Shown here in pieces: positions 15,511-29,048 of a stretch of 64,000 nt of DNA. Source of the stretch: an uncultured Pelagibacteraceae bacterium. GTDB taxonomy: Bacteria > Pseudomonadota > Alphaproteobacteria > Pelagibacterales > Pelagibacteraceae. Position 1 is the stretch's first letter. The number at the start of each line of letters is the position of its first letter. The notes under the pieces were generated by a model. It was not told where the DNA came from and ran no database searches. It saw only the letters and a program-made list of their open reading frames with translations. A program made the translations under genes and the position numbers. The stretch is taken from the NCBI GenBank assembly GCA_902515205.1, contig CABXTU010000003.1, forward strand, positions 1-64,000, written 5' to 3'.

Positions 15511-16385
15511 ATATAGTAAGAAACCTACCTGGGCCATTATTAATATTTTTAGGCGCTTTAAGTTTAAGTTTTGGTGGATTAATTGTTAAATCTTTTGAAG
15601 GAGCTACTTTATGGCAAATTTTATTTTGGCGCTCTTTCTTTTTTACTTTAACTGTTTTAGCTTTCTTAATTATTAGTTACAGGAAAGAGACTTTTAAATC
15701 TTTTTACAATTCAGGATTACCAGGATTTTTGGGGGGAATAATATTATCTTTTGGTTTTTGTGGCTATGTATTTGCCATGTACAACACTACAGTTGCAAAT
15801 ACAAACTTTATAATATCTCTCCAAATACTATTTCTAGCTATATTTGGATATTTTTTTTTAAAAGAAAAAATTAATACTTTGACTCTTATTTCAATCATTT
15901 TAGCAATCAGTGGTGTTTTATTAATGGTTGGAAATTCGTTAACTCCTGGAGAATTATCTGGAAATCTTGCTGCTTTTTCAATGCCAATTTGTTTTGCAGT
16001 TTTAATTATAATAGTAAGAAAACATCCAACAGTAGATATGATTCCAGCTCAATTTATTGCTGGAGTTTGTTCTTGTTTTATAGGATTTATCCTTTCAACA
16101 AAAATAATGATTTCTACTCATGATATCTTTTTAGGATTTTTAGCTGGTTTTTTTCAAATTGGTTTTGGATTTATTTTTATCACTATTGGTGCAAGAACTA
16201 CACCATCAGCAATGGTTGGAATAATCATGCTATCCGAATCTGTGTTGGGCCCAGTTTGGGCATTTATATTTGTGAGTGAAAGACCATCAATATTTGGTTT
16301 AATTGGTGGGGCGATCATACTCTTCGCAGTATTACTTCAATTTTATTCACTTTTGATTAAGAATAAAAAAAGTGTTTCTCATTGA
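15507..16385 (+). CDS. EamA/DMT family transporter
   Basis: About 10 TM segments in two repeats, DMT signature regions; 4-bp overlap with pxpC. Confidence 0.75.
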   Translation: MNIVRNLPGPLLIFLGALSLSFGGLIVKSFEGATLWQILFWRSFFFTLTVLAFLIISYRKETFKSFYNSGLPGFLGGIILSFGFCGYVFAMYNTTVANTNFIISLQILFLAIFGYFFLKEKINTLTLISIILAISGVLLMVGNSLTPGELSGNLAAFSMPICFAVLIIIVRKHPTVDMIPAQFIAGVCSCFIGFILSTKIMISTHDIFLGFLAGFFQIGFGFIFITIGARTTPSAMVGIIMLSESVLGPVWAFIFVSERPSIFGLIGGAIILFAVLLQFYSLLIKNKKSVSH

Positions 16386-16410
16386 CATTTATAGTTACTT
16401 GTAAGATTAT
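16382..16410 (+). promoter_or_regulatory. Sigma70-type promoter for the gcv riboswitch/operon
   Basis: TTGACA (16382-16387), 17-nt spacer, GATTAT (16405-16410); predicted start lies at about the first riboswitch base. The -35 box overlaps the stop codon of the EamA gene. Confidence 0.65.
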
Positions 16411-16416
16411 TAATTT

Positions 16417-16565
16417 ACGGGAGAGACTACAGAATATCGTAGCGCCGAAGGAGCAACCACCCAGGAATCTCTCAGGCAAAAAGGACCGTAACATATTAAC
16501 TCTGGAAAGAGATTAAGTTCTCGCCGAAGGAGCAAAACTCTCAGGCAAATATACAGATGGGTATA
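16417..16565 (+). ncRNA. Tandem glycine riboswitch (gcvT element, two aptamers)
   Basis: Aptamer 1 ACGGGAGAGAC...CGCCGAAGGAGCAACC...CTCTCAGGCAAAAAGGACCGT; aptamer 2 CTCTGGAAAGAG...TCGCCGAAGGAGCAA...CTCTCAGGCAAATATACAGA; directly upstream of gcvT. Confidence 0.95.
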
Positions 16566-16575
16566 ATGAGTTAAT

Positions 16576-17673
16576 ATGGAAATAAAAGAAACATCCTTAA
16601 TAAACCTTCATAAATCAAATGGTGCAAAGCTTGTTGAGTTTGCGGGTTATAACATGCCTGTCCAATACTCAGATGGGATTATCAAAGAGCACAGGTTTAC
16701 TAGGTCAAATAGTGGTATTTTTGATGTCTCACATATGGGTCAATTATTTATTTATGGTGATGATATGTTAACAAAAGATCTTGAAAAAATTTTTCCTATA
16801 GATTTACAAAGTTTAAAGATAAATCAGAGTAAGTACTCATTTTTAATGAATAAAAATGGTGGCATCTGTGATGATCTAATCATAACTAAAATTAGTGAAG
16901 GCTATATGATTATTTTAAATGCTGCTTGTAAAATTAATGATTATAAAATTCTTAAAGAAAAATTAAATGACAGCTATAAATTAGAGCTAAAAGAAAATCT
17001 TTCTTTAGTTGCATTACAAGGACCAGGAGCTCAAAATATACTTGGAAAAGTTATACCAGAAACTACCAATCTAAAATTTATGCATGGAGGAGATTTCAGT
17101 TATAATAATTATAAACTTTATATCACTAGATCTGGATACACAGGGGAAGATGGATTTGAGATTTCAATTCCAAATGAAATAGCTGAAAATTTTACAAAAA
17201 TTTTACTTAAAAATGGATCAAAATTAATTGGTTTAGGTGCGAGGGATACATTACGTTTAGAAGCTGGACTTTGCTTATATGGAAATGACTTAGATACAGA
17301 AACCACTCCTATAGAAGCCAACTTAAAGTGGGCTATATCAAAAAAAAGAATTAACGATCAATATCCAGGATCTGAAATAATTAAAAAACAAATTCATGTT
17401 GGTGTTAAAAAATTAAGAGTTGGAATTAAGCCAGATACTAAGATTATTGCTCGAGCTAATACAAAAATATTTAATGAAGAAAATAAAAAAATTGGAAAAA
17501 TTACAAGTGGTACTTTTGGACCAAGTGTAGAATATCCAATATCGATGGGCTATGTTGATAGTAATTATTCATCAATAAATACAAAAATATTTTTAGAAAT
17601 AAGAGGAAAAAAGATTGCTGCAAATATTTGCAAGTTACCTTTTTATCAAAAAAACCACCTGAAGGAGCTATAA
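16576..17673 (+). CDS. gcvT: Glycine cleavage system aminomethyltransferase (T protein)
   Basis: GIFDVSHMGQ, GYTGEDGFEI, GLGARDTLRLEAGLCLYGNDL; upstream of gcvH and gcvP. Confidence 0.95.
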   Translation: MEIKETSLINLHKSNGAKLVEFAGYNMPVQYSDGIIKEHRFTRSNSGIFDVSHMGQLFIYGDDMLTKDLEKIFPIDLQSLKINQSKYSFLMNKNGGICDDLIITKISEGYMIILNAACKINDYKILKEKLNDSYKLELKENLSLVALQGPGAQNILGKVIPETTNLKFMHGGDFSYNNYKLYITRSGYTGEDGFEISIPNEIAENFTKILLKNGSKLIGLGARDTLRLEAGLCLYGNDLDTETTPIEANLKWAISKKRINDQYPGSEIIKKQIHVGVKKLRVGIKPDTKIIARANTKIFNEENKKIGKITSGTFGPSVEYPISMGYVDSNYSSINTKIFLEIRGKKIAANICKLPFYQKNHLKEL

Positions 17674-18054
17674 ATGTCCGAAGTTAAATTTTCGAAAGAA
17701 CACGAATGGATTACACTTGAAGGAGAGGTCGCAACTATAGGAATAACAAAACATGCAACAGAAATGTTGGGTGATATTGTTTTTGCTGAACTTCCTGAAA
17801 AAGGTTCAAATGTAGAAAAAGATAGTACAGCTGGAGTAGTTGAGTCAACGAAAGCAGCAAGCGATGTTTATACTCCTTTAAGTGGAGAAATTGTAGATAC
17901 CAATGAAAAAATCGTAGATGATCCAGCAAAAATAAACGAAGACCCTGAAGGCGCAGCATGGTTTTTTAAATTAAAATTAAAAGATATATCTGAGATGGAT
18001 AGTTTAATGAACAAAGAAGAATATGATAAGTTTGCAAAAGAAAGTGGTAGTTAA
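17674..18054 (+). CDS. gcvH: Glycine cleavage system H protein
   Basis: [18 protein letters not shown], lipoyl-Lys region [17 protein letters not shown]. Confidence 0.96.
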
Positions 18055-20913
18055 ATGTTAAAAAATGCTCAAAAAGATTTTATTCAAAGGCATATAGGTC
18101 CATCAGAAAAGGAACAAGAAATAATGCTTAAAGAGCTTGGTTATAAAAGCTTAGGTAATTTGATAGAAAATACTGTACCAGAAAAAATTTTATTTAAGGA
18201 TAGTCTAGATATTGGTGATCCAAATTCTGAATATGAAGCTTTAAGGAAACTTAAGAATATTTCGAAGAAAAATAAAGTTTTTTCAAGTTTCATAGGTATG
18301 GGTTATTATGGAACATATACACCGTACGTAATCCTTAGAAATATATTGGAAAATCCAGGTTGGTATACCTCATATACTCCATATCAACCTGAAGTAGCTC
18401 AAGGTAGATTAGAAATGTTGCTGAATTTTCAACAAATGATTATTGATTTTACTGGGATGGATATAGCAAATGCCTCACTTTTAGATGAGGCTACTGCAGC
18501 AGCAGAAGCTATGGGATTAAGTTTTAGATTATCAAAAACTGAGACAAAAAAAGTTTTTGTTTCAAAAAATTGTCATCCTCAAACTATTGAAGTTATTAAA
18601 ACAAGGGCTGAGCCATTAGGATTAGAAATAATAGTTGGTGATGAAGATAAAGATATTAATCAAAATATTATTTGTGGTATACTTCAATATCCTGGAACTT
18701 TAGGAGATATAAAAGATCCAAGCGAGGCAATTAGTAAAATTCACAAAAATAATGGTAAAGCGGTTTTGGCCTGTGATTTACTTGCTTTAGCTAAACTTAA
18801 AACACCAGCAGAATTAGGTGCTGATATTGCTATAGGTAGTTCACAGAGATTTGGAATTCCAATGGGTTATGGAGGTCCTCATGCAGCTTTTTTTGCCACA
18901 AAAGATGAATTTAAAAGATCAATGCCTGGAAGAATAGTTGGAGTTTCAGTTGATAGACACGGTAAAAAAGCTTTTAGATTAGCTCTGCAGACCAGAGAAC
19001 AACATATTAGAAGAGATAAAGCTACAAGCAATATTTGTACAGCTCAAGCTTTGCTTGCAATAGTTTCGGCAGCTTATGCAGTTTATCATGGACCAAAAGG
19101 TATTAAAAAAATTGCTGAAACAGTTTCTCAACTTACAAAAAATTTTGCAGATAAATTAAAACAATCAGGCTATGAATTATACTCTGATAAATTTTTTGAT
19201 ACTGTCACAGTAAAAACGTTAGATAAAACAAATAAAATTTATAAAAATGCTTTAGATCAAGGTGTCAATATAAGAAAAGTTAATTCTGAATTATTAGCAG
19301 TATCTTTCGATGAACGAAAAAATTTATATAGAGCAAATCAACTATTAAAAATATTTAACTGTTCAGAAACAATTAAAGAAACAATGAATGAAAGTTTATC
19401 TAATTTACCAAAAAAGTTACTTCGAAGTTCTACTTATTTAGATCATCCAGTATTTAATAGCTATCATTCTGAAACAGAAATGCTTAGATATTTAAAAAAA
19501 TTAGAGGACTCTGATATAGCTCTGAATAGAACAATGATAGCTTTAGGTTCTTGTACAATGAAATTAAATGCAGTTTCAGAAATGACACCTGTGACATGGA
19601 AAGAGTTTTCACAACCACATCCATTTTCTCCAGTCGAACAGATGGACGGTTATAGAGAACTTTTTACCGATTTAAAAAATTGGTTAAGATCAATTACAGG
19701 TTTTTCTGGTATTTCTCTTCAACCAAACGCTGGCGCTCAAGGTGAATTTGCAGGACTAATGGTAATAAGAAGATTTCATGAAAAAAATGATGAGCTAAAT
19801 CGAAATGTCTGTTTAATACCAAGTTCAGCACATGGCACTAATCCGGCAAGTGCTCAAATGGTAGGTATGAAAGTCGTTGTTATTAAATGTGATGAGCAAG
19901 GAAATGTTGATTATCAAGATTTGAAAAAGAAAGCTGATGAACACTCAGAAAATTTGGCAGCCTTGATGGTAACATATCCTTCGACTCATGGTGTTTTTGA
20001 GGAAAAAATAACAGACATTTGTAACTTAATTCATAAACACGGTGGACAGGTATATATGGATGGAGCAAATTTAAATGCTTTAGTAGGAGTAGCAAAACCT
20101 GGAAATTTTGGACCAGATGTGTGTCATATTAATTTACATAAAACTTTTTGTATTCCACATGGAGGAGGTGGTCCAGGTATGGGTCCAATAGCATGTAAAA
20201 AACATTTAGAAATATTTTTACCCAAACATTCAGTAATTAAAGATTGTGGACCAGCAACAGGAATTGGAGCAGTATCAGCCGCTCCTTGGGGAAGTTCAAG
20301 TATTTTATCAATCTCATGGATGTATATTAAAATGATGGGATCAGAGGGTTTAAAAAAAGCGTCTCAAGTCGCAATTTTAAATGCAAATTATCTTGCTCAT
20401 AAATTGAAAGATTCATTCCCAATTTTGTATAAGGGAAAAAATGGCAACGTTGCGCATGAATGTATTATAGATATAAGAAGAATAAAAAAGGAGATTGGCA
20501 TTACGGAAGAAGACATAGCAAAAAGACTTATTGATTTTGGTTATCACGCACCCACAATGTCATGGCCAGTGGCTGGGACAATGATGATTGAACCTACAGA
20601 AAGTGAAAGTTTGAATGAAATTAATAGATTTTGCCTAACTTTAAAAAAGATTAGACAAGAAATTGATAAAGTTAAGTCAGGGGATTATGATAAAGTAGAC
20701 AATCCACTTAAAAATGCGCCACATACACACGTTGAATTAAGTTCTAACAAATGGGAACATATGTATGAAAGGGAAGAAGCTGCTTATCCTTCGGAAATTT
20801 TAAAAACAGTAAAGTACTGGCCTCCAGTTGGAAGAGTAGACAATGTCTATGGAGATAAAAATTTATTTTGTACTTGTCCATCTATGGATGAATATGAGGA
20901 CTCTGCAGCATAA
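18055..20913 (+). CDS. gcvP: Glycine dehydrogenase (decarboxylating), P protein
   Basis: 952-aa P protein: FIGMGYYGTYTPYVILRNILENPGWYTSYTPYQPEVAQGRLEML; PLP-Lys region NLHKTFCIPHGGGGPGMGP. Confidence 0.97.
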   Translation: MLKNAQKDFIQRHIGPSEKEQEIMLKELGYKSLGNLIENTVPEKILFKDSLDIGDPNSEYEALRKLKNISKKNKVFSSFIGMGYYGTYTPYVILRNILENPGWYTSYTPYQPEVAQGRLEMLLNFQQMIIDFTGMDIANASLLDEATAAAEAMGLSFRLSKTETKKVFVSKNCHPQTIEVIKTRAEPLGLEIIVGDEDKDINQNIICGILQYPGTLGDIKDPSEAISKIHKNNGKAVLACDLLALAKLKTPAELGADIAIGSSQRFGIPMGYGGPHAAFFATKDEFKRSMPGRIVGVSVDRHGKKAFRLALQTREQHIRRDKATSNICTAQALLAIVSAAYAVYHGPKGIKKIAETVSQLTKNFADKLKQSGYELYSDKFFDTVTVKTLDKTNKIYKNALDQGVNIRKVNSELLAVSFDERKNLYRANQLLKIFNCSETIKETMNESLSNLPKKLLRSSTYLDHPVFNSYHSETEMLRYLKKLEDSDIALNRTMIALGSCTMKLNAVSEMTPVTWKEFSQPHPFSPVEQMDGYRELFTDLKNWLRSITGFSGISLQPNAGAQGEFAGLMVIRRFHEKNDELNRNVCLIPSSAHGTNPASAQMVGMKVVVIKCDEQGNVDYQDLKKKADEHSENLAALMVTYPSTHGVFEEKITDICNLIHKHGGQVYMDGANLNALVGVAKPGNFGPDVCHINLHKTFCIPHGGGGPGMGPIACKKHLEIFLPKHSVIKDCGPATGIGAVSAAPWGSSSILSISWMYIKMMGSEGLKKASQVAILNANYLAHKLKDSFPILYKGKNGNVAHECIIDIRRIKKEIGITEEDIAKRLIDFGYHAPTMSWPVAGTMMIEPTESESLNEINRFCLTLKKIRQEIDKVKSGDYDKVDNPLKNAPHTHVELSSNKWEHMYEREEAAYPSEILKTVKYWPPVGRVDNVYGDKNLFCTCPSMDEYEDSAA

Positions 20914-20925
20914 ATTTTTTAATAA

Positions 20926-22164
20926 ATGAAAATAGCAGTAGTCGGTTCAGGCATTTCAGGTTTAAGTGCTGCATATTATTTATCAAAAAAAAATCATGTA
21001 GATCTTTTTGAAAAAGAGGATCGTTTTGGAGGACACTCTCATACTATAGATCTTAATTTTGGACCAAAAAAAATATCAGTAGATATAGGCTTTATTGTTT
21101 TTAATTTAAAAACTTATCCAAATTTAATTAATTTTTTTAAGGAAAATAAGATTGAAATAGAAAAAAGTAATATGTCTTTTTCAGTTTCAGTTGAAAATAC
21201 AAATTTTGAATATTGTGGGAAAGGTTTAAATGGTATTTTTTCAAATAAACTAAATTTATTTAATTTTAAATTCTTGAAAATGTTTTTTGACATTATTAAT
21301 TTTTATAAAAAATGTGATGATGTAAAAAATTTTGATGAAGGAATAACTCTTGGTGAGTATTTAACTATAAATAAATTATCAAAAGAATTTATAAACTATC
21401 ATTTAATACCTATGGTTTCAGCTATTTGGTCAATGCCTCCATATGAAGCTAGCAAAATGCCTTTGAAATTCTTTTTAAAATTTTTTCAAAATCATGGCTT
21501 ATTTAAACTGAAAGATAGACCACAATGGTACACTGTCGCCAACAGAAGTAGGGCGTATGTCCAAAAAATAATCTCAAATTTGAGTGGCGAACATTTTAAA
21601 AATTATACTGTTAAAAAAATTGTAAGTAATAAGTCTGGAGTAGATCTGTATTATGGTGGAGATAGTGAATTTTTTAATTATGATAAAGTTGTATTAGCAA
21701 CACATGCCGATGAGGCTTTATCAATTATAGAAAATCCATCAAAAGATGAAAAAAAAGTATTATCAAATTTTAATTATAAAGAAAACTTTGCTTATATCCA
21801 TACGGATGAAAAAATTATGCCTAAAAATAGAAACGCTTGGTGTTCATGGAATTCTTCAATGGATAAAGATAATGTTGAAAAAAATTCAATAACTTATTGG
21901 TTAAATTTATTGCAAAATTTAAAATGTAAAGAGAATATATTTTTGACTTTAAATCCTTACTTTGAATTAGATAAATCTAAAATACTAAAAAAAGTAAGAT
22001 TCACTCATCCTTATTTTGATCAATCTGCATTAAATTATCAATCTGAGCTCAAAAATTTGCAGAATAAAAGAAATATTCTTTTTTGTGGTAGTTATTTTGG
22101 TTATGGATTTCATGAAGATGGAATAAAATCATCTATTGAAATGCTAAAAAACTTTAATGACTAG
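20926..22164 (+). CDS. FAD-dependent oxidoreductase, NAD(P)/FAD-binding amine-oxidase-like (COG2907 type)
   Basis: GSGISGLSAAYYLSKKNHVDLFEKEDRFGGHSHTID; first gene of the DUF1365/Cfa cluster. Confidence 0.85.
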   Translation: MKIAVVGSGISGLSAAYYLSKKNHVDLFEKEDRFGGHSHTIDLNFGPKKISVDIGFIVFNLKTYPNLINFFKENKIEIEKSNMSFSVSVENTNFEYCGKGLNGIFSNKLNLFNFKFLKMFFDIINFYKKCDDVKNFDEGITLGEYLTINKLSKEFINYHLIPMVSAIWSMPPYEASKMPLKFFLKFFQNHGLFKLKDRPQWYTVANRSRAYVQKIISNLSGEHFKNYTVKKIVSNKSGVDLYYGGDSEFFNYDKVVLATHADEALSIIENPSKDEKKVLSNFNYKENFAYIHTDEKIMPKNRNAWCSWNSSMDKDNVEKNSITYWLNLLQNLKCKENIFLTLNPYFELDKSKILKKVRFTHPYFDQSALNYQSELKNLQNKRNILFCGSYFGYGFHEDGIKSSIEMLKNFND

Positions 22165-22918
22165 TTCAATTTACAATGGAACTGTAATACACAAAAGATT
22201 TAAACCTAAAGAACATTTTTTTAAATATAGTGTATTTTCATTTTTAATTGATTTAGCAGAATTAAATCATCTTAATAAAAAAATAAAATTTTTTTCATAT
22301 AATAAATTTAATCTTTTAAGTTTCTATGAAAAAGACCATGGTAATAGAGATGGTTCATCTTTAATAACATGGGTTAAAAAAAATTTAGATGATAACAATA
22401 TTAACTCAGAAGATGTGAACATAAAATTATTATGTTATCCAAGAATTTTGGGGTATGTATTCAATCCATTAAGTATATTTTATATTTATGATATTTATGG
22501 GAAATTGATATGTATTTTATATGAAGTAAAAAATACCTTCGGGGAACAACACACATATATATTTAAGGTAGAGGGTGACAAAAACCTCTATCAACATAAT
22601 TGCTCAAAAAAATTTCACGTTTCTCCTTTTATAGAAATGAATTGTAAATATTTTTTTAGACTTTTAAAGCCAGGAGAAAAAATTTCTGTAATAATTGATC
22701 AATATCAAGCAGATGAAAAAATATTATATGCATCTCAGGATGGTAAAAGAGTAGATTTTAACTCAAAAGAATTAATTAAATCTTATATAAAACACCCCTT
22801 AATGACATTTAAGATAATTTCAGCGATACATTTTGAAGCGTTCAAATTATGGATAAAAGGAATTAAGTATGTAAGAAGAAAACTTAAAATAAAAAATAAT
22901 ATTACTATTGAAAATTAA
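22157..22918 (+). CDS. DUF1365 family protein
   Basis: SSIYNGTVIHKRFKPKEHFFKYSVFSFLIDLAEL..., CYPRILGYVFNPLSIFYIYD...KNTFGEQHTYIF; lies between the FAD protein and Cfa. Confidence 0.85.
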   Translation: MTSSIYNGTVIHKRFKPKEHFFKYSVFSFLIDLAELNHLNKKIKFFSYNKFNLLSFYEKDHGNRDGSSLITWVKKNLDDNNINSEDVNIKLLCYPRILGYVFNPLSIFYIYDIYGKLICILYEVKNTFGEQHTYIFKVEGDKNLYQHNCSKKFHVSPFIEMNCKYFFRLLKPGEKISVIIDQYQADEKILYASQDGKRVDFNSKELIKSYIKHPLMTFKIISAIHFEAFKLWIKGIKYVRRKLKIKNNITIEN

Positions 22919-24096
22919 TGAATCTATTTAGAATTTCAGACATAATTGTATTTAATACTTTGAAAAATATTAAATATGGTTATTTGGAAATCATTAATCA
23001 TAACGGTGATTTATTAAGATTTGGTAATCCAAACGAATTACTAAAAGCATATCTTGAGATAAAGAGACCTAATTTTACTTTTAATCTTATTAAAGGAGGG
23101 AGTGTGGGACTCGCTGAATCTTATATGAGGAATGAATTTGAAACTAAAAATTTATCTAATTTAATTGAATTAACAGCTAGAAATATTAAGCAAATTCACA
23201 AATTTTCGGGTTTGCTTGACTTATCATTTATTAATTTTTTGAAAAGAATGTTTTTTAAAAATACAAGAAATAGGAGTAAAGAAAATATAGCCAAACACTA
23301 TGATCTAGGTAACGAATTTTTTTCACTTTGGCTTGATAAAACATTAACCTATTCAAGTGCAATTTTTGATGAAAAAAATAAAGATTTAACAGATGCTCAA
23401 AATAATAAATATCAAAAATTGATAGATTTAATTAAACCCAGTTGTGGTGATAAAATTTTAGAAATTGGATGTGGCTGGGGTGGGTTTGCTGAGTATCTTG
23501 GAAAAAAATATGATGTAAAACTTGATTGTATTACAATTTCAAAGAAACAGTTTCAATATGCTAAAGAGAGAATTCATAAATGTGGCTTAAGTGAAAAAGT
23601 TAATATTGAGATTAAAGATTATAGAGATTTAAAAGATAGATATAATTCGATAGCATCGATTGAAATGATTGAAGCTGTAGGCCAAAATTATTTAGAAAGT
23701 TATTTCAGGACTATTAAAAATAATCTCTCGAATAGTGGAAAGGCTGCTATCCAAGCTATTACTATTGATGATAATTTGTTTGATAGATACAAAAATAAAG
23801 AGGATTTTATTCAAAAATATATTTTTCCAGGAGGATTCCTACCTAATAAAAATAGTATAAATAAATATGTTTCTGATAATGGTTTGACTATAAAATCATA
23901 TGAGTCTTTTGCTGATCATTATTCCAATACATTGTCAATATGGAGAAATGAGTTCAATAAAAAATGGGATCAAATTAAAAATCAAGGTTTTGATTTGACT
24001 TTTAAAAGGATGTGGGAATTTTACTTATGCTATTGTGAAGCTGGTTTTAAGTCAAAGAATATTGATTTAATACAATTTTCAATTCAAAATAAATAG
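22918..24096 (+). CDS. Cyclopropane-fatty-acyl-phospholipid synthase-like SAM methyltransferase
   Basis: ENIAKHYDLGNEFFSLWLDKTLTYSSAIF, ILEIGCGWGGFAEYLGKKYDV, IEMIEAVGQNYLESYF, YIFPGGFLPN. Confidence 0.9.
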   Translation: MNLFRISDIIVFNTLKNIKYGYLEIINHNGDLLRFGNPNELLKAYLEIKRPNFTFNLIKGGSVGLAESYMRNEFETKNLSNLIELTARNIKQIHKFSGLLDLSFINFLKRMFFKNTRNRSKENIAKHYDLGNEFFSLWLDKTLTYSSAIFDEKNKDLTDAQNNKYQKLIDLIKPSCGDKILEIGCGWGGFAEYLGKKYDVKLDCITISKKQFQYAKERIHKCGLSEKVNIEIKDYRDLKDRYNSIASIEMIEAVGQNYLESYFRTIKNNLSNSGKAAIQAITIDDNLFDRYKNKEDFIQKYIFPGGFLPNKNSINKYVSDNGLTIKSYESFADHYSNTLSIWRNEFNKKWDQIKNQGFDLTFKRMWEFYLCYCEAGFKSKNIDLIQFSIQNK

Positions 24097-24107
24097 GAAA
24101 TAAAGTT

Positions 24108-24656
24108 ATGTCAGATATGAAATTATATAAATCAATTTTATTGATAATTTGTTTAATCTTAACTACAAGTTGTTCTAAAAACAGTTCTATGAAACCAGAA
24201 GATTTTCAAAATAAAGAACCAAGATTAATCATTGAAGAGTATTTGTCTGGGAATGTTAAAGCATGGGGTGTGCTTCAGAATAGATCTGGAAAAGTTACAA
24301 GACAATTTTCTGCTAATCTCAATGGTAAGTGGGATGGTAAAGAGTTAATACTTGATGAAAAATTTAATTGGGATGATGGTGAAGTTCAAGACCGTCAATG
24401 GAAAATAACTAAAATTGATGATAATAATTACGAGGGCACTGCTGGCGATGTTGTTGGTAAAGCTAAAGGTTATTCTTATGGTCCAGCTTTTAAGTTTGAA
24501 TATGTTTTACTTGTACCAGTTAAGGGTAAAGAGATGAAAATAACATTCGATGATTGGATTTTTAAGCAAGATGATCGTGTAGCAATTAATCGAGCAACAA
24601 TGACTAAATTTGGTTTTAAGGTCGCTGAATTAACAGTAGTGTTTGTAAAAGATTAA
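24108..24656 (+). CDS. DUF3833 family lipoprotein
   Basis: Lipobox LTTSC; FSANLNGKWDGKELILDEKFNWDDGEVQDRQWKI..., in the standard Cfa neighbourhood. Confidence 0.8.
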   Translation: MSDMKLYKSILLIICLILTTSCSKNSSMKPEDFQNKEPRLIIEEYLSGNVKAWGVLQNRSGKVTRQFSANLNGKWDGKELILDEKFNWDDGEVQDRQWKITKIDDNNYEGTAGDVVGKAKGYSYGPAFKFEYVLLVPVKGKEMKITFDDWIFKQDDRVAINRATMTKFGFKVAELTVVFVKD

Positions 24657-25414
24657 TCCTTCTTTTGATGTTTTGTCATTTTTCCTATTAAACTAAAATA
24701 GATTTTGCTTGGTAAGAAATTAAGTGTCTTAAGAATTAGAGTTAAAGCTTTAGGAAAATGAATTTCAAAAACATCTTTATTTACTAAGCCATCATAAATT
24801 TTTTCAGCAGCATATTCAGTGGTTTTTAAAAAAGGCATTTTAAAATCATTTTTGTCTGTCATAGGTGTTTTTATAAAACCAGGGCTAACTAAACAAACCC
24901 GAACATTTGATTTTTTAAAATCAAAGTATAAACTTTCCGCTAAATTATTGAGAGCAGATTTTGAAGGTCCGTATCCAGTTGAGTTAGGTAATCCCCTATA
25001 TCCTGCAATAGATGAGACAATTGTTATAATTCCACTTTTTTTATTTTTAAAATATTCTTCTACTGCTTTTATGCTATTAAGTGTTCCAAAAAAATTTATT
25101 TTAAAAACATCTTCTATTTGTTCAACATCGATATTTTTTTCCTTTTTTGGATCCCATGTCCCAGTTGAAAAAAAACAAATATCAATATTTTGAAATTTAT
25201 TTTTTATTTCTTCAAAAACTTCTTTGCACTTCGATTTATCTGTGACATCAAGCGGAAATCCATAAATATTTTTGTTATTATCTGAGATCTCCTTAAGAAG
25301 AGCATCTCTTCTTGCAGAAATTGCAACATTCCAACCTTCGTTGGCAAATTTAATCGCTAAAGCTTTGCCAATGCCTGTACTTCCACCTGTTATCCAAATT
25401 GTTTTTTTATTCAT
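24653..25414 (-). CDS. SDR family oxidoreductase
   Basis: TGGSTGIGKALA, catalytic GYGPSKSAL, SSIAGYRG. Confidence 0.85.
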   Translation of the reverse strand: MNKKTIWITGGSTGIGKALAIKFANEGWNVAISARRDALLKEISDNNKNIYGFPLDVTDKSKCKEVFEEIKNKFQNIDICFFSTGTWDPKKEKNIDVEQIEDVFKINFFGTLNSIKAVEEYFKNKKSGIITIVSSIAGYRGLPNSTGYGPSKSALNNLAESLYFDFKKSNVRVCLVSPGFIKTPMTDKNDFKMPFLKTTEYAAEKIYDGLVNKDVFEIHFPKALTLILKTLNFLPSKIYFSLIGKMTKHQKKD

Positions 25415-25420
25415 TATATA

Positions 25421-25906
25421 GTGATGTATAATACTAATATGCCCAAAAATAAATTTTTATCATTTTTATTTTTTCTTATAATTACTTTTTCTGCCTCATT
25501 TATAGGGGGATTTGTCACAATTAGTTATAAAGAGCCTTGGTATTCTCAATTAATTAAATCAAATTACAATCCACCTGACTGGATTTTTGCTCCTGTATGG
25601 ACAACCTTATATTTAATGATGGCATTAGCAATTTGGATTTTTTGGAATAGTAAAAAAAGAGATATTAACACGATATACATTTATTTATTTCATATATTTT
25701 TTAATACAACTTGGAGTATTGCTTTTTTTGCTTTGCATAATATTCTACTTGCATTATTAAATTTAATTATTTTAATTAGTTTTATAATCATTCTTATTTT
25801 AAGGTTTAGACGTGTCAATTTAGTGAGTTATTATCTCATGATTCCTTATTTACTTTGGACTTCCTATGCCTTATTCCTAAACCTAAGTTTGTATATATTA
25901 AATTAA
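25421..25906 (+). CDS. TspO/MBR family protein
   Basis: SYKEPWYSQLIKSNYNPPDWIFAPVWTTLYLMMALAIW..., TspO five-TM pattern. True start may be the downstream Met at MPKNK. Confidence 0.88.
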   Translation: MMYNTNMPKNKFLSFLFFLIITFSASFIGGFVTISYKEPWYSQLIKSNYNPPDWIFAPVWTTLYLMMALAIWIFWNSKKRDINTIYIYLFHIFFNTTWSIAFFALHNILLALLNLIILISFIIILILRFRRVNLVSYYLMIPYLLWTSYALFLNLSLYILN

Positions 25907-27011: not shown

Positions 27012-28466
27012 TTAAGTTCCGCAAAAAGTTTGATATTTTTCTTTAAGTACAGAAGGTATTTGATACTCGAAAATACCTTTTTTTTTGTTATATGGATTTT
27101 TTAAAACTTCTATAAGTTGAATGACTGGTTTAAAATTATTCTTATTAGCGGCATCAAGTGCTTCTTCCACTTTATGATTTCGAGGAATTACTGAAGGATT
27201 AAAACTTCTCATTAGTTTTAAATATTTTTCAGGGGATGAGTTATTAATCTTTAATCTTTCAAGCCATCTTAGTTTCCAATTTTTAAAATTTATATCCTCG
27301 TAATTCTTATTTTCTTGGATTTTTTCACCCATCAGATAACAAAAAGTATTTGTATAATCATTTTTTTTTTCATGCATCCAGGTAAGTAAATCTAGTATTA
27401 AAAATTTATCATTTTTATCTGTTCCGAATAAACCTAGTTTATTTTTCATCATGTTAAGCCATTTTTCCTCATATTTTTTTTCAAAAGAATTAATTATATC
27501 AGTTGCATCTTTAATTGCATGATCCTGTTTATCCTGAATTAATGGAATAAGACATTCAGCTAATCTGGCAAGGTTCCATTTTGTAATAATAGGTTGATTA
27601 CAATATGCATATCTTCCCATTTGATCTATAGAACTAAATACAGTTTTTGGATCATAATCATCCATAAAGGCACAAGGACCGTAATCAATAGTTTCACCTG
27701 AAATACTCATATTATCAGTATTCATTACTCCATGAATGAAACCAACTCTCATCCAATTTACCACAAGATCAATTTGTTTCTCTAAAACAATTTTTAAAAA
27801 ATCGGTAGCTTTATTTTTAGAATTTTCAATATTTGGAAAATGTCTCCTGATTACATAATCTAATAATGTTCTTAATTCATCTTTTTTATTTCTGGCAGCA
27901 ATATATTGAAAAGTACCAACTCTTATATGACTCGAGGCTACTCTTGTAAGTATTGCTCCTTTTAAACAATTTTCTCTAATTACATCCTCACCTGTTTTAA
28001 CTACAGCTAAACTTCTTGTTGTTGGAATATTCAAGCAATGCATTGACTCACTTATAATATATTCTCTTAACATTGGACCCAAAGCCGCTCGACCATCACC
28101 ATTTCTCGAAAAAGCAGTTTTTCCTGAGCCTTTAAATTGGATATCATATCTATTTTTATTTTTTGACAAATGTTCCCCAATCAGAACCGCTCTTCCATCC
28201 CCTAACATTGTAAAATGACCAAATTGATGACCAGCATATGCTTGAGCAATAGAATTACTGCTTTCAGGCAATTCATTGCCTGCAAATAAAGCAGATAATT
28301 TAGCCTTATCGACATTTGAAAAATTCAAATCAAGGTCTTTAGCCAAATTTTCATTCATTATTACTAATTCAGGATTTTCTACTTTAACTGGTTCAATGTT
28401 TTCCTTAAATGAATCAGGAAGTCTAGAATATGAGTTATCAAAATTCCAATTAATATTACTATTCAT
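27012..28466 (-). CDS. selO: Protein adenylyltransferase SelO (YdiU/UPF0061)
   Basis: AQAYAGHQFGHFTMLGDGRAVLIGE, IQFKGSGKTAFSRNGDGRAALGPMLREYIISE, GVMNTDNMSISGETIDYGPCAFMD. Confidence 0.92.
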   Translation of the reverse strand: MNSNINWNFDNSYSRLPDSFKENIEPVKVENPELVIMNENLAKDLDLNFSNVDKAKLSALFAGNELPESSNSIAQAYAGHQFGHFTMLGDGRAVLIGEHLSKNKNRYDIQFKGSGKTAFSRNGDGRAALGPMLREYIISESMHCLNIPTTRSLAVVKTGEDVIRENCLKGAILTRVASSHIRVGTFQYIAARNKKDELRTLLDYVIRRHFPNIENSKNKATDFLKIVLEKQIDLVVNWMRVGFIHGVMNTDNMSISGETIDYGPCAFMDDYDPKTVFSSIDQMGRYAYCNQPIITKWNLARLAECLIPLIQDKQDHAIKDATDIINSFEKKYEEKWLNMMKNKLGLFGTDKNDKFLILDLLTWMHEKKNDYTNTFCYLMGEKIQENKNYEDINFKNWKLRWLERLKINNSSPEKYLKLMRSFNPSVIPRNHKVEEALDAANKNNFKPVIQLIEVLKNPYNKKKGIFEYQIPSVLKEKYQTFCGT

Positions 28467-28472
28467 AAAATA

Positions 28473-29048
28473 TTATTTATTCCATATTTCCTTTAAAATC
28501 TCTTCTCTTTGACAAGCTTTTTTATATTTTAAATAATTTTCGAAATATACTTTATAAAAATTTTGGTGTCGAGCTTCAGCTTTGTAGAATTTTTTGAATT
28601 GTCTTGAATATGTAACAACTTTTTTATTAAACTTTTTTTCTAAATTTTTAATATCTCTTTCTATTAAGTTTTTTTCTTTATCAGTTTGATAAAATGCTAC
28701 AGATCTATAACTATAACCTTTATCACAAAATTGCCCATAAGCATCAAAAGGGTCTATATTTATCCAAAAGTTTTTAAGAAGGTCTTCGTAAGATATAATT
28801 TTTTTATCATAAATAATTTCAACAACTTCGAAATGACCTGTATTTCCATAAGTAACTTCTTTGTATGTTGGATTTTCAGTTATACCACCTGAGTATCCAG
28901 AAATAACCTCTTCAACTCCACTTAATTTTTCAAATGACTCCTCTACGCACCAAAAACAACCTCCAGCAAAATATGCTTTATTTTTTTTTGAAGCCTCTGA
29001 TGAACTAATCAAAAAAATAGATAAAAATATTATAATAAAATATTTCAT
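28473..29048 (-). CDS. msrA: Peptide-methionine (S)-S-oxide reductase, with signal peptide
   Basis: AYFAGGCFWCVEESFEKLSGVEEVISGYSGG, TYKEVTYGNTGHFEVVEI, MsrA hallmark GCFWC; N-terminal secretion signal. Confidence 0.93.
   Translation of the reverse strand: MKYFIIIFLSIFLISSSEASKKNKAYFAGGCFWCVEESFEKLSGVEEVISGYSGGITENPTYKEVTYGNTGHFEVVEIIYDKKIISYEDLLKNFWINIDPFDAYGQFCDKGYSYRSVAFYQTDKEKNLIERDIKNLEKKFNKKVVTYSRQFKKFYKAEARHQNFYKVYFENYLKYKKACQREEILKEIWNK

Follow-up and report, generated by a model that had tools for sequence, protein, structure and literature searches.

A probable furan fatty acid operon behind the glycine cleavage genes of a SAR11 bacterium

What does a streamlined marine cell make with a flavoprotein, a DUF1365 protein and a cyclopropane synthase-like methyltransferase encoded without gaps on one strand, and what controls their expression? 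The question is raised by a 64,000-nucleotide stretch (the window; contig CABXTU010000003.1, positions 1 to 64,000) from an uncultured Pelagibacteraceae bacterium of the SAR11 group, whose assembly is 0.99 Mb long and 83% complete. It is proposed, from the protein sequences, that positions 20926-24096 most probably form a ufaD-ufaO-ufaM operon for a monomethylated furan fatty acid (FuFA) on phospholipid; this confidence applies to the FuFA pathway and not to the glycine control considered below. A furan-type pathway had been suggested by an initial annotation of the window, and it now appears more complete than proposed there: the DUF1365 protein, overlooked at that stage, belongs to the UfaO family, and the full set for a methylated FuFA is therefore present.

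In Rhodobacter sphaeroides, 9M5-FuFA requires the methyltransferase UfaM (RSP2144), the flavin protein UfaD (RSP1091) and UfaO (RSP1090), which is a DUF1365 protein, while in Rhodopseudomonas palustris RPA2571-2570-2569 (ufaD, ufaO and ufaM) are necessary and sufficient (PMC7380195). The window holds all three families in the R. palustris order. The ufaD-like gene (20926-22164, forward strand) encodes a putative acyl desaturase of 412 aa that depends on flavin adenine dinucleotide (FAD; PF01593/PF13450, FAD amine oxidoreductase) and is 34% identical to UfaD of Cereibacter johrii; the ufaO-like gene (22157-22918, forward) encodes a 253-aa DUF1365 protein (PF07103, 3e-77), the proposed furan-forming oxygenase, which is 30% identical to the C. 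johrii UfaO. Where 95% or more of 165 UfaD homologues (C. johrii UfaD included) agree in a column, the window protein agrees with them throughout, and the same holds for the UfaO-like protein against 162 homologues. The ufaM-like gene (22918-24096, forward) encodes a 392-aa acyl methyltransferase dependent on S-adenosylmethionine (SAM; CMAS/Cfa-like, PF02353, 2e-83). The first two genes overlap by 8 bp and the next two by 1 bp, and 11 bp separate ufaM from a DUF3833 gene.

This run of genes is no product of chance: the same order occurs in 15 further Pelagibacterales loci, at about 50-90% protein identity. DUF1365 is found in 308 of 397 Pelagibacterales genomes (126 of the 151 good ones), and we count it in favor of the FuFA pathway that it has been maintained across the order despite streamlining. 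In a concatenated tree, the SAR11 operons linked to the glycine cleavage (gcv) genes fall together at 100/100; a 99/100 split sets them, along with further operons from Pelagibacterales and those of two alphaproteobacteria with small genomes, apart from the rest, a grouping to which shared letter composition may contribute. Few bacterial groups are as abundant in the sea as SAR11, and most relatives of the window genome carry the FuFA genes too.

One rival reading takes the methyltransferase for an ordinary cyclopropane fatty acid synthase, with the FAD and DUF1365 proteins unrelated in role. It does match the CMAS family, and the NCBIfam Cfa models match it too, but below their cut-offs. It also shares with Cfa of Escherichia coli (PDB 6bqc), Aquifex (7qos) and Lactobacillus (5z9o) SAM chemistry on phospholipid acyl chains. 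The initial annotation had proposed a tree as a check, and in the comparison of METHYLTRANSFERASE with Cfa (53 rows) the SAR11 operon proteins group not with true cyclopropane synthases but in the UfaM clade (97/96), beside the sole CMAS protein of full length that C. johrii encodes; the three Cfa enzymes lie outside that clade, as does the second full-length CMAS protein of the window's own genome (G000:C5). The active-site residues agree with the tree. At E. coli positions 139, 240 and 266 the three Cfa enzymes carry C-H-H, and the window methyltransferase carries S-A-Q. In E. coli Cfa, residues 139 and 266 are part of the site that binds bicarbonate. Over all loci, Q stands at 266 in 103 of 103 distinct methyltransferases of UfaD/UfaO clusters, and 11 unlinked canonical Cfa-type proteins read C-E-H-H-I-Y; one C-E-H-H-F protein, in locus L216, is encoded separately, at a distance of some kilobases from ufaO. 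On both the tree and the residues a plain cyclopropane synthase is ruled out, and with a canonical Cfa already encoded elsewhere in the same genome the rival as a whole is highly improbable. The S-A-Q versus C-H-H pattern could help to correct 'cyclopropane synthase' annotations.

That second SAR11 CMAS protein (28252-29043 of G000:C5, locus L087) has the canonical C-H-H residues, and SAR11 may form both cyclopropane and furan-type acyl chains. Phaeobacter italicus (L165, genome G589) has two UfaM-type methyltransferases, of which one is encoded within its chrR-ufa cluster (L188) and the other, grouping with the Cereibacter UfaM, at a different site (L182).

By analogy with the established chemistry of R. 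sphaeroides and R. palustris, we infer that SAR11 produces such a lipid, together with its chain length and protective role. UfaM would place a methyl group on C11 of a cis-vaccenoyl (18:1) chain and shift its double bond, UfaD would desaturate the methylated chain to a methylated conjugated diene, and UfaO would insert an oxygen derived from O2, upon which the furan ring closes to 9M5-FuFA or a chain-length variant. UfaM of Halomonas sp. YLGW01, in which the three ufa genes are consecutive, yields 11-methyloctadec-12-enoate in E. coli (PMC12089945). The substrate should be available: FabA-family proteins occur in 11 of 11 genomes checked, and in a close relative the FabA gene directly adjoins a gene whose translation is FabB-like, so the cell has the means to form cis-unsaturated acyl chains; an FA_desaturase was found in one of the 11. 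No third full-length CMAS protein, a possible FufM, was seen in the window's own, 83% complete genome, in contrast to R. palustris, where FufM adds a second methyl (PMC7380195). The furan lipid would be consumed as it traps radicals and singlet oxygen, a defence that makes sense for an aerobe living in sunlight. In Rhodobacter, 9M5-FuFA vanishes under singlet oxygen, which is bactericidal to cells without FuFA synthesis (PMC7380195). Fish and other marine organisms contain furan fatty acids, which trap radicals and singlet oxygen; their synthesis is believed to be confined to bacteria, algae and plants (PMC11945187). For SAR11 a protective role is likely, and a photoprotective one, carried over from Rhodobacter, plausible. 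If so, the pathway would give a streamlined cell a membrane-level defence without the usual singlet-oxygen switch.

The operon might instead end at, or make, something else: 11-methyl-12-octadecenoate only, a methylated diene, or a FuFA of other chain length or position. A UfaM paralogue without effect on FuFA is known in R. palustris, where RPA3082 is 38% identical to UfaM and its deletion has no effect (PMC7380195), and the window proteins are 30-38% identical to characterised enzymes. Against this stand the near-invariant residues of UfaD and UfaO, all of which are kept, and the fact that the two travel together across SAR11, which argues for a complete route; another product seems unlikely to us. 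Both RPA3082 and the low identity also weigh against the FuFA assignment itself, as do several further points. The 30-38% was measured against C. johrii, a stand-in for R. sphaeroides, and R. palustris was likened by families and gene order. The literature yielded no report that SAR11 contains furan fatty acids, the one paper mentioning both being irrelevant; to judge by titles and abstracts, papers on Pelagibacter and singlet oxygen dealt with subjects other than its lipids. Across the 397 genomes no association was seen between DUF1365 and rhodopsin, a weak test with both near universal. Finally, ChrR gave no match above the TIGR02451 cut-off in 15 SAR11 genomes, the window's own (83% complete) included, with weak partial matches in four of the 15, so singlet-oxygen induction of the Rhodobacter kind is unlikely.

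The rhodopsin comparison had been tried as a link to light and gave none. Rhodopsin (PF01036) occurs in 358 of the 397 genomes; several genomes (G040, G064 and G110) have DUF1365 and are rhodopsin-negative, and several f2/g10 genomes (G002, G004 and G008) have rhodopsin but no DUF1365.

If not by ChrR, how are the genes controlled? Regulation is the clearest new point of this locus, with glycine-controlled genes upstream in place of the usual light-damage switch. The abutting genes gcvT, gcvH and gcvP for glycine cleavage (16576-20913, forward) lie directly upstream of ufaD, in conserved order, and the ufa transcript may start there; they were recognized from their frames and named from the translations and from the riboswitch-gcvT arrangement reported in HTCC1062 (PMC2704228). 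A tandem glycine riboswitch precedes gcvT, with one aptamer at 16408-16498 (forward; RF00504, 66.1 bits) and a shorter one at 16501-16557 (forward; 35.2 bits, gathering score 32); at least one RF00504 aptamer occurs in 10 of 10 related loci scanned. Just 5' of it lies a promoter-like TTGACA-17-GATTAT (16382-16410, forward), found by a consensus scan only. Mapped SAR11 riboswitch transcripts start at P1 or up to 15 nt upstream (PMC5069720). At 16 of 16 loci (the window and the 15 others, from genera g1, g5 and g6) gcvP is directly 5' of ufaD, with a gap of -1 to 14 bp; it is 12 bp in the window, which leaves no room for a terminator. No terminator-like site was found on the forward strand within gcvTHP or between gcvP and ufaD. 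From the short gap and the missing terminator-like site we infer a shared gcv-ufa transcript, or read-through into ufa, and the functional unit may extend upstream to the riboswitch and gcvTHP (16408-20913). Read-through at high glycine may then drive expression of the ufa operon; glycine cleavage also supplies the one-carbon pool, the source of SAM methyl groups.

The ufa genes might, on the other hand, follow gcvTHP by accident, with a promoter of their own and no control by the riboswitch. Streamlined genomes frequently pack unrelated genes together, and the same consensus scan places a promoter-like site inside gcvP (20663-20691). In a Red Sea metatranscriptome SAR11 was found to express the riboswitch-gcvT transcript, and gcvT is the only linked gene named there (PMC5069720). 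Such promoter-like sites are, however, no commoner than in shuffled sequence, and the short gap at all 16 loci and the missing terminator-like site speak for a common transcript. We regard an accidental arrangement as a serious possibility, though somewhat short of an even chance. The broader proposal, that in SAR11 the furan-lipid pathway has moved from singlet-oxygen to glycine control through gcvTHP read-through, which ties an antioxidant membrane lipid to glycine supply and one-carbon flux, and that SAR11 is a major unrecognised source of FuFA in the surface ocean, is put forward tentatively and as a whole remains doubtful. Were it true, the locus would exemplify how an operon for a stress lipid can come under the control of a metabolite riboswitch. 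The arrangement is not general in the order: five sampled loci from genera g2-g4 and family f2 have ufaD, ufaO and ufaM without an adjacent gcvP or DUF3833.

Comparison with known ufa clusters places the remaining genes. The R. sphaeroides ChrR sequence (PDB 2Z2S) served as query for named genomes, of which C. johrii was the nearest; in the CHARACTERISED lineage comparison, the C. johrii ChrR is 96% identical to that of R. sphaeroides. In C. johrii (L102), chrR-rpoE adjoins ufaD-ufaO-MFS-DUF3833-SDR, where MFS is a major facilitator superfamily protein and SDR a short-chain dehydrogenase/reductase. The last three products are 401, 186 and 245 aa long, in agreement with RSP1089, RSP1088 and RSP1087 (402, 186 and 245 aa; PMC7380195), by which the DUF3833 and SDR genes of the window are counterparts of singlet-oxygen operon genes. 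The first (24108-24656, forward; PF12915, 3e-61) encodes a lipoprotein-like protein that agrees in family and length with RSP1088, as represented in the Cereibacter operon; the second (24653-25414, reverse; PF00106) is convergent with the operon, with a 4-bp overlap, and its product is 32% identical to the 245-aa Cereibacter SDR. Both travel with the pathway, the R. sphaeroides counterparts being dispensable for the product. SAR11 thus shares ufaD, ufaO, DUF3833 and SDR with the ChrR-RpoE-linked RSP1091-1087 operon (seen through its C. johrii proxy), but has ufaM inside, no MFS gene, an opposing SDR and no ChrR above the cut-off. Several Roseobacter-type genomes have ufaM added to the chrR-ufa cluster. 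The initial annotation had placed UfaM and UfaD side by side in R. sphaeroides; there ufaM lies apart from ufaD and ufaO, and the adjacency holds instead for R. palustris (PMC7380195) and Halomonas (PMC12089945). R. palustris has the same families and order as the window, without the gcvTHP genes and riboswitch in front. Halomonas sp. YLGW01, a Gammaproteobacterium, resembles SAR11 in its consecutive ufa genes and separate canonical cfa, and no glycine riboswitch link is described there (PMC12089945). The genes of Chlamydomonas whose induction by singlet oxygen depends on SAK1 include one for a DUF1365 protein and two that are Cfa-like (PMC4067076).

Structure prediction adds a hint on UfaO. 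The AlphaFold2 model of the window protein (mddef20c9947d, 22157-22918) is confident (pLDDT 94.6) and largely beta, and against the PDB it gives weak matches to nitrobindin and FABP-like barrels (best E 1.4e-3), a weak likeness that hints at a heme- or lipid-binding barrel; no DUF1365 relatives were found among PDB sequences.

All six genes between 20926 and 25906 were confirmed by reading frames and Pfam, so that the run described in the initial annotation, from the FAD protein through DUF3833 to a convergent SDR and TspO, is real. Within the limits of their contigs, the 16 loci continue with DUF3833-SDR-TspO, two of them interrupted by an insertion. The TspO/MBR gene (25421-25906, forward; PF03073) lies outside the ufa transcription unit because the opposing SDR gene stands between; it is a conserved neighbor of the operon in SAR11. 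The association recurs outside SAR11, in a distant alphaproteobacterium (L226, G509:C82:19000-35000) with the order rpoE-chrR-TspO-ufaD-ufaO-DUF3833-ufaM. SDR and TspO diverge with start codons 6 bp apart (25408-25440), a spacing that forces their promoters into coding sequence; a later ATG is a possible start for TspO. Just downstream, at 27012-29048 on the reverse strand, lie genes for the protein AMPylase SelO and the methionine sulfoxide reductase MsrA, two families tied to oxidative stress. Eight related loci also have SelO as a neighbor, and in L214 a relative of MsrA is encoded close to a chrR-ufa cluster.

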